The notes below the pieces were generated by a model. The model made no database searches. It saw nothing but the letters and a program-made list of their open reading frames with translations, and had not been told where the DNA came from. Position numbers and translations under genes: made by a program. Positions 29,492 through 33,486 of a DNA stretch of 33,787 nucleotides are shown here, one piece after another. The stretch covers positions 1-33,787 of the forward strand of contig SVFB01000081.1 in NCBI GenBank assembly GCA_015057085.1, in the 5' to 3' direction. Position 1 is the stretch's first letter, and each line of letters starts with the position of its first letter. Source of the DNA: Lachnospiraceae bacterium. GTDB taxonomy: Bacteria; Bacillota; Clostridia; Lachnospirales; Lachnospiraceae.

Positions 29492-31270
29492 TTAAGCCCT
29501 CATATCAAACGAATATCTGTGAACCAAACCGATTGGTTTCGCATCCTGTTTCATAAAATCTTCTACAAAATCCAGATGTTTTGCCTCATTGACAACCGCA
29601 ATTTTGCAATTGTAGCCCTTTCGTCTGAGGCGCTCTGCCAACTCTTCCGAATGCTCCATTACCAGCTGATAAGAAGCATCATTATCAAAATAAAACTTTG
29701 TATCTACATTTCGATCCTTCATTTTTACGGATACGTCCGTAGATCCGAGATTTTCCATGTCGAGGTGCAAAAATGCTGACAATTCTCCATCCTCATCCAT
29801 GTTCTTTTTGTTTGTATATACGTACAGCTCTCCTGCCACATTTTGTCCATTCATCTGGAGCGGAATCTGCACATATTGATAGGTCTGATTAACCTGATTC
29901 ATAAAATCTACATTATTGCGAATATCAGTGGCAGTCTGAATCAAAGAGTTTGATTCCTGACCAGTCGCCCGAACTGCCGACTCAATGCGATTTAATTGAT
30001 TTTTTAAATGTTCATAAAGTTTCGAAACTTTGTCACTCTCTGAACCGGCTAAATCTTGCGGTTTCAAGGTCCATTGCTGTTTCATTGCTTCTTTACTTAA
30101 ATCCTGAAATTCTCCGGACAAAAACAGCTTCACCAAAGAAGCTTTATCAGCATCTGAAAGATTCGATAGTCCCATTGCGATCTGATTGAGCAATTCCATC
30201 GCATTTTGTTCCGGCACAAGGGTTTGATTATTCGGAAGCAAATTCGCTTCAAACAAATTATTGGTCAAGTTCGATAACTGATTGGTATTAAACAAAGAGC
30301 CCAGCGAGCCCGGGGATGCATTTACTAAAACTTCTTTCTCCAAAGAAGCACTCATCGCTTGTTCTGTAGCGCCCGGCTCTGCTTCTGCCTCTGCCTGTTG
30401 CAAAACATCATGATTTGCCCCCTGTATGTCAACAGACGGTTGCTGCGACACGGTCTGCTGCGACACGGTCTGCTGTGTCACATCCTGCTGTGTCACATCC
30501 TGTTGTATCACGCCCTGTTGCGCGACATCCGTTTCGGCATTCTGCTCTAAAGCAACATTTGGCAACGGCTCACCATTTTCGAAACTTAGATTTTCTGTCA
30601 ATATCTGCAATACATCTGATGCAGTCTTTGCCATCTCTCCTACAGATAAATTCTGATTTGCCAAGCTATTTGGCAATTCTTCCATGAACTGATTCAATTC
30701 ATTTGTGATTGCCTGGCGATCATTTGCATAATTTTCAAATTGGGATATCATTTCCGGTGTCGTCGGCAGTTTTAGATTTGTCATTTCCACCAGGGTTTCC
30801 ACATTTGCAGTTGGATTATTGGAAACCAAACGCGCCATTTGTGCCAACGAATCCCGGTCCACCGGCATCGCTTTCTCCATCATGGAATTGACCATGGTTA
30901 GATTTGATTCGTTAATTGACAAATTTGCTTGAGAAAGCGCATTCATCATTGTAAGATTCACCTGATTGCCGTTTAATGTAAACGGACGAATTGCGATGGT
31001 GTTGCCATCATTTGATTTCACCTGAAAGAAAAGAGACTGCCCCTGTGTAAGAGAAATAGATGCATCAAGACGTGCGGACAGAGTTTGGCCGTTTGAAAGG
31101 CCCAGTAGAACCCTTCCGCCTTTAATGGAATTAACGGTACCCTCAAAAATGTTGCCTTGCGTTAATTCCGAGAGACTTGATACCAGCTTTTGCGTTCCCA
31201 TCTGTGCGGAAGCTTTAACCGGTTGCGATGTGGAGTTATTGTACATTCCTACCAGGTTGGAAAGTTGCAT
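29492..31270 (-). CDS. FliK-like protein (YlqG-type) with Flg_hook-like C-terminal domain
   Basis: This 592-residue protein is hydrophilic, rich in Asn, Gln and Ser, and has no signal peptide. Residues about 480-570 resemble the FliK C-terminal domain: an amphipathic segment LSAFLHLDMENLGSTDVSV, then an acidic, Tyr-containing stretch and SEELAERLRRKGYNCK. Residues about 249-278 are a pentapeptide array (six units like TQQDV or SQQTV). FliK measures hook length with a long, disordered N-terminal half; this one has a comparable layout. GGAGG lies 7 nt before the ATG, which shares one base with the rnhB stop codon (TGATG). Longer starts lie inside rnhB. Function outside flagella is unknown. Confidence 0.78.
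   Translation of the reverse strand: MQLSNLVGMYNNSTSQPVKASAQMGTQKLVSSLSELTQGNIFEGTVNSIKGGRVLLGLSNGQTLSARLDASISLTQGQSLFFQVKSNDGNTIAIRPFTLNGNQVNLTMMNALSQANLSINESNLTMVNSMMEKAMPVDRDSLAQMARLVSNNPTANVETLVEMTNLKLPTTPEMISQFENYANDRQAITNELNQFMEELPNSLANQNLSVGEMAKTASDVLQILTENLSFENGEPLPNVALEQNAETDVAQQGVIQQDVTQQDVTQQTVSQQTVSQQPSVDIQGANHDVLQQAEAEAEPGATEQAMSASLEKEVLVNASPGSLGSLFNTNQLSNLTNNLFEANLLPNNQTLVPEQNAMELLNQIAMGLSNLSDADKASLVKLFLSGEFQDLSKEAMKQQWTLKPQDLAGSESDKVSKLYEHLKNQLNRIESAVRATGQESNSLIQTATDIRNNVDFMNQVNQTYQYVQIPLQMNGQNVAGELYVYTNKKNMDEDGELSAFLHLDMENLGSTDVSVKMKDRNVDTKFYFDNDASYQLVMEHSEELAERLRRKGYNCKIAVVNEAKHLDFVEDFMKQDAKPIGLVHRYSFDMRA
30436..30525. repeat. 15-bp tandem repeat array in the FliK-like gene
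   Basis: Six 15-bp units, two of which (30451-30465 and 30466-30480) differ at only three positions, encode the pentapeptides AQQGV, IQQDV, TQQDV, TQQTV, SQQTV and SQQPS. Unit length in whole codons keeps the frame if copy number changes. Units are only partly identical. Confidence 0.85.
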
Positions 31271-32037
31271 CACATATCCTCCAGTATCTTTTTGATAAAA
31301 CTTCTTCTGTGAATTGGACAAGGTCCATACTTTTTCAGTGCTGCAATATGCTCGACTGAGCCATAGCCCTTATTGGAAGAAAATCCATATTCCGGGAACA
31401 TTTTGTCATATTCCTGCATCAATCGATCCCTTGTCACTTTTGCGATAATGCTAGCAGCACCGATTGAAATGCTTTTTGCATCTCCTTTGATAATCGGGAT
31501 TTGTCTAATGTCCACCTCGGGAATGGTAACAGCATCATTGAGTAGCAAATCCGGCTTCTTGGAAAGATTTCCAATGGCCTCTCGCATTGCTTCATAGGTT
31601 GCCTGTAAAATGTTAATTTCATCAATGCGCTCCGGTGTGTTCACTCCGATTGCACAAGCAACCGCTTTCTCCATAATTTCATCATAGAGTTCTTCTCTCT
31701 TGGCTTCGCTTAATTTTTTCGAATCATTGATATATAAAATATCGCAATCCTTCGGCAAAATCACAGCCCCTGCCATAACCGGTCCTGCCAGTGGTCCACG
31801 GCCCACTTCATCAATTCCGCAAATAAATTCATACTCAGAATATTTATTTTCGTAAAATTTCAACTTCTCGATTCGATCTAATTCCGCATGATATTTATCC
31901 AATCGTTTGCGCGCAGACTCGACAATTTTTACAACCCCGGCACGCTCATCCGTATCATATTTTGCGATAAATGAATCTAATTCCCGATCCTTTGTATTTT
32001 TTAAATGTTCCTTAATTACACCTATTTTTTCTTCCAT
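31270..32037 (-). CDS. rnhB: Ribonuclease HII
   Basis: RNase HII cuts RNA in RNA-DNA hybrids, including single ribonucleotides in DNA. The 255-residue product has the catalytic GIDEVGRGPLAGPVMAG segment with Asp76 and Glu77, a central NDSKKLSEAKRE segment, and later KGDAKSISIGAASIIAKVTRDR. A 70-residue N-terminal extension is usual in Firmicutes and may help substrate binding. The ATG is 5 bases after rbgA, with only a weak AGGCG upstream, so coupling is likely. It overlaps the next gene by one base, as do several neighbours in this run. Confidence 0.96.
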   Translation of the reverse strand: MEEKIGVIKEHLKNTKDRELDSFIAKYDTDERAGVVKIVESARKRLDKYHAELDRIEKLKFYENKYSEYEFICGIDEVGRGPLAGPVMAGAVILPKDCDILYINDSKKLSEAKREELYDEIMEKAVACAIGVNTPERIDEINILQATYEAMREAIGNLSKKPDLLLNDAVTIPEVDIRQIPIIKGDAKSISIGAASIIAKVTRDRLMQEYDKMFPEYGFSSNKGYGSVEHIAALKKYGPCPIHRRSFIKKILEDM

Positions 32038-32042
32038 CTTAT

Positions 32043-32882
32043 TTACGCCTGTTCCAAAGAAATCTTACCCAAAGTGCCGGCGCGGAATTCGTCCAAAAGA
32101 AGCGCTGCAGCTTTTGCATAATCCAATTCGCCCCCATTTTTAAGGCACTTTCTGTTTTCCGCAATTTTAAGTAAAATATCAGAATTCGACTCTGCTTCAT
32201 CCACTTCATAACGTTCCTTTAATACTCCCGGATAAGCGGTCTTTAAATATTGAATCAATTCAATGGAAAGCTCATCAATATTTAATATCTGATCATTAAT
32301 AGAGCCCACCAATGCCAAACGCAAGCCAACTGTTTGATCCTCAAATTTCGGCCATAAAATTCCAGGGGTATCAAGCAATTCCACATTCTTGTTCAAACGA
32401 ATCCACTGCTTTCCCTTTGTGACACCCGGCTTATTCCCGGTTTTTGCCACTGCCTTTCCTGCAAAAGAATTAATAAACGTGCTCTTTCCCACATTCGGGA
32501 TTCCCACTACCATCGCGCGAATCGGACGGTTTTTAATTCCACGCTTTCTGTCTCGCTCGATTTTTTCTTTACAAGCCTCCATAATCACGCGGTTGATATT
32601 ACTCATAGAGCTTTTATTTCTTGCATCCAGACATACTACTGCATAGCCTTTATTCTCAAAAAACTTTGTCCAGGCTTCTGTCATTTTCGGATCTGCCAGA
32701 TCGGATTTATTCATCAAAATCAAACGGAATTTATTTTTTCCAAGTTCGTCAATATCCGGATTCCGACTCGACTGCGGCAAACGCGCATCCACAAGTTCAA
32801 TCACCAAATCAATCAGTTTGATGTCCTCTTGCATCTGCCTCTTTGCTTTTGTCATATGTCCCGGGTACCATTGAAAATTCAT
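32043..32882 (-). CDS. rbgA: Ribosome biogenesis GTPase RbgA (YlqF)
   Basis: RbgA is a circularly permuted GTPase needed for late 50S assembly in Firmicutes. The motif order is permuted as expected: G4 NKSD at residues 58-61, then G1 GIPNVGKST at 127-135, then G3 DTPG at 171-174, with an RNA-binding-type C-terminal domain (about 190-279). The 279-residue length is normal. A weak AGGT site lies about 4 nt before the ATG. It sits between lepB and rnhB. In B. subtilis rbgA is likewise followed by rnhB, so the order is conserved. Confidence 0.96.
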   Translation of the reverse strand: MNFQWYPGHMTKAKRQMQEDIKLIDLVIELVDARLPQSSRNPDIDELGKNKFRLILMNKSDLADPKMTEAWTKFFENKGYAVVCLDARNKSSMSNINRVIMEACKEKIERDRKRGIKNRPIRAMVVGIPNVGKSTFINSFAGKAVAKTGNKPGVTKGKQWIRLNKNVELLDTPGILWPKFEDQTVGLRLALVGSINDQILNIDELSIELIQYLKTAYPGVLKERYEVDEAESNSDILLKIAENRKCLKNGGELDYAKAAALLLDEFRAGTLGKISLEQA

Positions 32883-32898
32883 AATTACCTCACTTTAA

Positions 32899-33486
32899 TT
32901 ATCGGACAATACCCATATCTCCTAAAGAGGAGAATCGATACCAGGCCTTGCCTTCAATATATTCTTTCTTGATGACGCCAATATTTGCATATCGACTGTC
33001 TTCACTGTTGTTTCGATTGTCACCCAATACAAAATATTCATCTGAGCCAAGCTCGATTGCTTCTTCTGCAATTCCGGCATTCTCAATGGATGCCACATCT
33101 GTGGATTCTTCGTAAAATTCACCGTTTACATATACAGCCCCATCTATAATCTGCACGGTATCTCCAGGTGTTCCGATGACACGTCTCACATAATAGTGGG
33201 ATTTTTCGTTACCATTCGGCAAAAATACGATGACATCGCCGGCCTTTGGCTTCGTAAAGTTGTATACCAGACGATTCACAAAGACCTCTTCCCCATTCTT
33301 CAGGGTTGGCTCCATTGCACTACCCACAACCCCGGTTCGGTAACCAAACAAATAGACCAGCATAATCGCAACCAGTACAACAGCAATTAATTCGATCATC
33401 CATGCCAGAATATCTTTAAACAAATTGATATTAAACTTTTTTCTTTGCTTGCTGAAATTTAGACCGCTTTTCCTTCTTCTACCCAT
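32899..33486 (-). CDS. lepB: Signal peptidase I homologue lacking the Ser/Lys dyad
   Basis: The 195-residue product has the type I signal peptidase layout: one N-terminal membrane segment (about 27-48), box B (GSAMEPTL), box D (YVRRVIGTPGDTV) and box E (GDNRNNSEDSR). By alignment with SipS-type enzymes the nucleophile position (Ser in GDSM) is Ala57, with Ser56 one residue before it, and the Lys general-base position is Arg101. Both codons read cleanly (GCA and AGA). If the alignment holds it would not cleave signal peptides by the usual mechanism. A precedent is S. aureus SpsA, an inactive paralogue next to the active enzyme. It is the first gene of the rbgA-rnhB run. Confidence 0.85.
   Translation of the reverse strand: MGRRRKSGLNFSKQRKKFNINLFKDILAWMIELIAVVLVAIMLVYLFGYRTGVVGSAMEPTLKNGEEVFVNRLVYNFTKPKAGDVIVFLPNGNEKSHYYVRRVIGTPGDTVQIIDGAVYVNGEFYEESTDVASIENAGIAEEAIELGSDEYFVLGDNRNNSEDSRYANIGVIKKEYIEGKAWYRFSSLGDMGIVR

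Follow-up and report, generated by a model that had tools for sequence, protein, structure and literature searches.

LepB1 of a Lachnospiraceae bacterium, a signal peptidase I homologue lacking the Ser/Lys dyad, is probably a maintained pseudoenzyme

Introduction

What is a signal peptidase kept for when both of its cutting residues are gone? The question is raised by one gene in a 33,787-nucleotide stretch of DNA from a Lachnospiraceae bacterium (contig SVFB01000081.1, positions 1 to 33,787), which is referred to here as the window. The gene, named lepB1 in this analysis, starts with ATG and encodes LepB1, a protein of 195 amino acids. It runs on the minus strand from 33486 down to 32899; frame 1 of the plus strand over 32899..33486 has four stops. 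LepB1 scores above the curated cut-offs of both Pfam PF10502 (Peptidase_S26; 129.9 bits, cut-off 22.9) and NCBIfam TIGR02227 (signal peptidase I; 134.5 bits, cut-off 47), which places it in the Peptidase S26/signal peptidase I fold family, and its predicted fold agrees with this placement. Residues 55-58 read G-S-A-M and residues 99-102 read Y-V-R-R. In the alignment, Ala57 and Arg101 occupy the Ser and Lys sites of active enzymes, and the Ser nucleophile and Lys base of an active signal peptidase I are thus absent. Such a replacement of the dyad had been proposed from the letters of the window (the original prediction); it is confirmed by the alignment, and 30 of the 60 orthologues in the genus carry the same pair.

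32899..33486, minus strand: lepB1, signal peptidase I homologue without the Ser/Lys dyad, 195 amino acids (open reading frame, Pfam, NCBIfam, orthologues)
33316..33318, minus strand: codon 57, GCA = Ala, nucleophile position (read from the letters, 33318-33316)
33184..33186, minus strand: codon 101, AGA = Arg, general-base (Lys) position (read from the letters, 33186-33184)

We suggest that LepB1 is a maintained pseudo-signal-peptidase, which binds the ends of signal peptides without cutting them. We put this reading, in which both the loss of activity and the role are inferred, at a probability of about 0.72. It builds on directly supported points: the state of the dyad, its age and its clade, the selection on the replaced residues, the slow change of the cleft, the intact paralogues, and the recurrent loss to Ala/Arg (with one Thr).

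The double replacement is old and clade-wide

Among the 62 genomes of the genus that were scanned, 61 give matches and 60 carry a lepB1 orthologue; none was found in G017 (distant matches only) or G048 (no match). Denoting proteins by their residues at dyad positions 57/101, we read 30 A/R, 27 S/K and 3 S/R among the 60. No orthologue has an internal stop, and the matches are near full-length. Since the Ala/Arg pair is present in half of the orthologues, including that of the single-contig genome G008 (G003 is S/K), it is not a matter of chance or of assembly.

In a tree built without the two dyad columns, whose bootstrap had not settled, the A/R genes and one S/R gene (L006) form one clade with a support of 100/99, in which 30 of 31 members are A/R. 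The 27 S/K genes form another (support 98/94). Ser57 of L006 thus lies inside the A/R clade, and a reversal is its simplest reading. When RbgA, the product of the neighbouring gene, is added, the two other S/R genes (L069 and L070) join the A/R clade with a support of 98. On that tree the change of Lys to Arg precedes that of Ser to Ala, and this was probably the order in this lineage. Ser and Lys at this locus in close relatives had been named beforehand as a sign of recent decay; such relatives exist, as the sister clade of 27 S/K genes, but the double loss is old and not a case of recent decay.

The replacement residues are under purifying selection

All four Ala codons are used at position 57 of the A/R genes (GCA 11, GCC 8, GCG 7, GCT 4) and all six Arg codons at position 101 (CGC 7, AGA 6, CGG 6, CGA 6, CGT 3, AGG 2). 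Over the 31 rows of the A/R clade, parsimony counts 14 changes at the third base of codon 57 with a single residue change; for codon 101 it counts 23 base changes, and the residue never changes. If selection were absent, roughly one third of changes would be expected to be silent. Many base changes with almost no residue change mean that both replacement residues are under purifying selection. The ratio of nonsynonymous to synonymous substitution rates (dN/dS) is below 0.3 in the twelve closest A/R pairs. Catalytic residues lost throughout a clade in a conserved protein are one mark of a pseudoenzyme maintained by selection, and LepB1 bears it. The preference of the original prediction for a maintained pseudoenzyme over random decay is therefore borne out by the A/R state of 30 of the 31 clade members, by the selection on the two residues and by the intact cleft and intact paralogues described below.

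The peptide-binding cleft remains conserved

33301..33336, minus strand: box B, residues 51-62, first strand of the peptide-binding cleft (mapped through the alignment from the SpsB contacts in the available part of PMC4704075)
32977..33039, minus strand: box E, intact (GDNRNNSEDSR), residues 150-170 (column counts)

The cleft was defined by the S1 and S3 pocket residues of SpsB, as given in the accessible part of PMC4704075, transferred by alignment; nine positions besides the dyad result. In the A/R clade these positions account for 3 changes (tree length 8.87), in the S/K clade for 8 (5.73) and among the other genera for 45 (16.69). When they are set against nine sites drawn at random from residues 52-187, P is 0.0006 (A/R), 0.034 (S/K) and 0.16 (other genera), in an imperfect comparison, as the outgroup is deeper and cleft position 51 lies just outside the sampled range. 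Even so, the cleft stayed tight after catalysis was lost, and its conservation is at least that of the active sister clade. In box E, Gly155, Asp156, Ser161, Asp163 and Arg165 are constant in 30 of 30 A/R proteins.

Intact signal peptidases accompany LepB1

The host genome encodes two further signal peptidases, each with Ser and Lys. An intact paralogue, whose existence elsewhere the original prediction had left to be looked for, is found in 29 of the 30 A/R genomes, a count that includes two genomes with an alignment gap at the intact TGSM motif. Some relatives carry a second signal peptidase gene, lepB2, after rbgA; at the window locus it is absent, and rnhB directly follows rbgA. Among genus genomes in which the locus can be judged, lepB2 is found in 2 of 29 A/R, 7 of 26 S/K and none of 3 S/R genomes (two loci are cut by contig ends). 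A role of LepB1 as the partner of a tandem lepB2 was considered and rejected, as the two are not consistently linked across the A/R, S/K and S/R genomes of the genus. In genus g320, an S/K signal peptidase follows rbgA in 15 of 16 genomes, and the sixteenth locus is cut short. In genus g28 (L056, L283, L284), the lepB1-rbgA pair is followed by two more signal peptidase genes in tandem, which makes three per cluster.

The dyad is lost in other genera to the same residues

In a scan for the family 395 of 397 genomes match, two of them from this genus; named relatives from other genera in a contig scan are mostly Lachnospiraceae. Outside the genus 393 genomes match, and we read 128 orthologues, drawn from the higher-scoring matches among those listed: 122 are S/K, 3 S/R, 2 A/R and 1 A/K. 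The sample is biased to better scores and holds several genera twice, so the ratio 6/128 should not be taken as a family-wide frequency. All six departures are Ser to Ala and/or Lys to Arg. The second A/R genus, g320, has matches in 16 of 17 genomes, 15 of them A/R and one T/R, and the nearest tree neighbours of its genes are S/K genes. In g28 one species is A/R and its one congener S/K; L274 (S/R) has three congeners, all S/K; the two remaining S/R genes and the single A/K gene are the sole representatives of their genera in the sample.

Over 205 rows, only Ser, Ala and Thr occur at position 57 and only Lys and Arg at position 101. A quick tree of these rows requires at least six and seven changes at the two sites and eight for any departure from S/K, of which six are forced by well-supported branches. 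The pseudo-signal-peptidase probably arose more than once. Single-base changes would give Ala in a share of about 0.09-0.19 from TCN Ser codons and Arg in about 0.14-0.31 from Lys codons, depending on mutation bias. Compared with this expectation, the narrow Ala/Arg outcome suggests a constraint at the dyad sites, which may be a simple matter of side-chain fit.

Position 161, the Ser of box E, is Met or Gly in the S/R proteins L274 and L280. L292, which is S/K and belongs to the same genus as L274, likewise has Gly there, so the change at 161 may precede the loss of Lys.

Proposed mechanism

We suggest the following. LepB1 would be anchored in the membrane with its peptidase-fold domain outside, as judged from known enzymes, and it keeps the cleft for the Ala-X-Ala end of signal peptides. 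With no nucleophile at Ala57 and with Arg101 a poor substitute for the Lys base, it should be unable to cut; this loss of cutting is read from the residues. LepB1 may then bind the signal-peptide end of exported precursors and release them uncut, acting as a holding or timing factor alongside the active signal peptidases.

A wider proposal is tentative, and we would not lean to it as it stands. The LepB1 lineage may always have had a second, non-cutting job, namely the reception of signal peptides at the membrane surface and the holding or timing of exports. Catalysis would then be dispensable, so that lineages across the bacterial family would switch repeatedly and convergently, Lys to Arg and then Ser to Ala, to a substrate trap or receptor.

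Alternative explanations

33430..33486, minus strand: basic tail before the membrane helix, residues 1-19, RRRxGLNFxxxRKKxN type (column counts)
33346..33447, minus strand: predicted long helix with membrane anchor, residues 14-47 (AlphaFold2 model)

LepB1 could be kept as a structural scaffold, for a contact of its tail and membrane helix with, for example, the translocon, an active signal peptidase or the ribosome; the cleft would then stay conserved simply as part of the core of the fold. The basic tail is present in most lepB1 orthologues, dyad intact or lost. The mean column entropy of residues 8-19 is 0.63 bits in the A/R and 0.65 bits in the S/K clade, with a looser 1.42 bits in other genera. 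As the tail is conserved in both clades, its function would predate the loss of catalysis. All members of the A/R clade have Arg15 (31/31; 7% in S/K, 44% in other genera). The columns of boxes D and E are likewise very conserved, which limits the argument from the cleft. However, a fold need not keep every side chain of an open cleft, and the cleft changes more slowly than random sites. We consider the scaffold unlikely, though it deserves serious attention.

Slow decay, with lepB1 being lost after intact paralogues took over, agrees with the existence of such paralogues, with the mixed state of g28 and with box B, the membrane helix and the C-terminal end, which are somewhat looser than in the S/K clade. 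A gene in decay would not be expected to retain near full-length reading frames free of internal stops in 60 orthologues, to use all Ala and Arg codons while the residues barely drift, or to hold the A/R state across a clade; this explanation is very improbable. Hardly credible at all is an unusual active protease with Ser56 or another Ser/Thr as nucleophile and Arg101 or His97 as base. Arg101 is indeed under selection, and the A/R clade shows no variation at His97, Ser96, Ser161 or Ser164 (31/31). Yet Ser56, offered by the original prediction as a shifted nucleophile, fails: position 56 is Gln in 14, Asn in 12, Ser in just 2 and Pro in 2 of the 30 A/R proteins. In addition, SpsB S36A is described as a catalytic mutant in the available part of PMC4704075. 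A newly gained nucleophile was also considered and rejected, as the seven positions fixed in A/R and rare in S/K include no Ser, Thr, Cys or His.

Several observations weigh against the maintained pseudo-signal-peptidase and its repeated origin. The slow change of the cleft may reflect nothing more than the needs of the fold. The median dN/dS is somewhat higher in the A/R than in the S/K clade (0.19 versus 0.12; pairs with synonymous divergence, dS, under 1.5, that is, 30 of 435 and 48 of 351). Box B is looser, with Gly65 in 13 of 30 A/R versus 27 of 27 S/K proteins, and the Pro of SMxPT is kept in only 9 of 30 A/R proteins, though the S/K clade is also mostly without it (3/27). The rule of A/R is broken by L006 with Ser57 and by L215 (T/R) with Thr57, each known from a single draft genome. 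In trees of lepB1 alone, L069 and L070 group with other genera on a long branch; their union with the A/R clade is not rejected by the approximately unbiased (AU) test (p = 0.224). From lepB1 alone, the AU test does not reject a single origin for the two A/R groups (p = 0.145); with rbgA it only just does (p = 0.048; concatenated, p = 0.0475). The cleft of g320 differs from that of the A/R clade at four positions (Leu/Met51, Cys53, Val/Ile/Met62 and Met100).

In the S/K clade (e.g. L042 and L026), Glu takes the place of the SMxPT Pro in 15 of 27 proteins; for an active signal peptidase, the frequent loss of this Pro looks unusual.

Comparison with known systems

Inactive signal peptidase homologues are already known; what stands out here is the conservation, the intact orthologues of the sister clade and the recurrence. 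In Staphylococcus aureus, spsA adjoins spsB. In A/R genomes, in contrast, an active enzyme follows rbgA only in the two noted above, and the dead lepB1 is the orthologue of an intact gene in the sister clade. By its description in the available part of PMC12445088, SpsA is without two conserved catalytic residues, stands beside an active enzyme and is dispensable; LepB1 is similar in lacking two catalytic residues and in having active enzymes in the same cell.

SipA of Streptococcus pyogenes (GAS, group A Streptococcus; PDB 4n31 and 4k8w), which takes part in pilus assembly, has Asp and Gly at the dyad sites (PMC4049620). As in SipA, the dyad of LepB1 is lost and the cleft kept. Among the SipA proteins of other species, however, the dyad-site residues vary; they are dispensable, and the equivalents of Gly272 and Ser278 are replaced (PMC4049620), while in LepB1 Ala/Arg is constant through the clade and the counterparts Gly155 and Ser161 are retained. 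Moreover, lepB1 adjoins rbgA and rnhB and not a pilin/sortase cluster.

The best sequence match of LepB1 in the PDB is SpsB S36A (4wvg; 2e-16), which also has Ser changed to Ala. That protein is a man-made catalytic mutant with Lys retained, whereas LepB1 is natural and its Lys is replaced. Counted along the alignment to S. aureus SpsB, Ala57 falls at Ser36 and Arg101 at Lys77, the dyad numbers of the accessible part of PMC4704075; the review PMC12445088, in its available part, prints the base of SpsB as Lys83. The intact-dyad LepB1 proteins (27 of 60 in the genus, with 55-62% identity to the window protein, and 122 of the 128 read from other genera) share the family and the tail and differ in the dyad. 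In the open-licence PMC literature, at the level of titles and the beginnings of abstracts, we found no description of such a protein in this bacterial group.

Inactive signal peptidases are known case by case, such as SipA and SpsA. In this genus one locus holds an intact orthologue in some species and a dyad-less one in their sister species, with S/R intermediates, which makes the role of the dead enzyme testable by orthologue swaps. The double loss, found with the groove kept in about half of the sister species and found again in other genera, suggests a protein kept for holding, not cutting. The annotation as signal peptidase I probably covers some proteins that are no peptidases, as the NCBI model scores LepB1 at almost three times its cut-off.

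Locus and further homologues

32043..32882, minus strand: rbgA-type GTPase, the next gene downstream of lepB1 (Pfam MMR_HSR1; order kept in relatives)
31270..32037, minus strand: rnhB, ribonuclease HII, directly after rbgA (Pfam RNase_HII)

The GTPase gene is the one that we take to be rbgA. By Pfam, the genes downstream of lepB1 are the rbgA-type GTPase, rnhB and genes of FliK-like, FlhB-like and UPF0102 proteins. Upstream, trmD and rplS are found in 5 of 7 inspected loci of relatives, with the proteins judged by eye; the upstream genes of the L078 and L054 loci are different.

Last but not least, other S26 proteins also depart from the dyad. L059:3468-3956 and L060:3498-3986 (Ruminococcus/Clostridiales) are short homologues with Ala at the nucleophile site and Lys kept (GHAM...IKR); they start with a lipoprotein-like signal ending in Cys, not with a plain membrane helix, and are perhaps a separate inactive lineage. 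Two distant paralogues, L287:1411-2034 and L306:1495-2184, have Gly or Arg at the site of the base Lys, and may be further inactive groups or misaligned.
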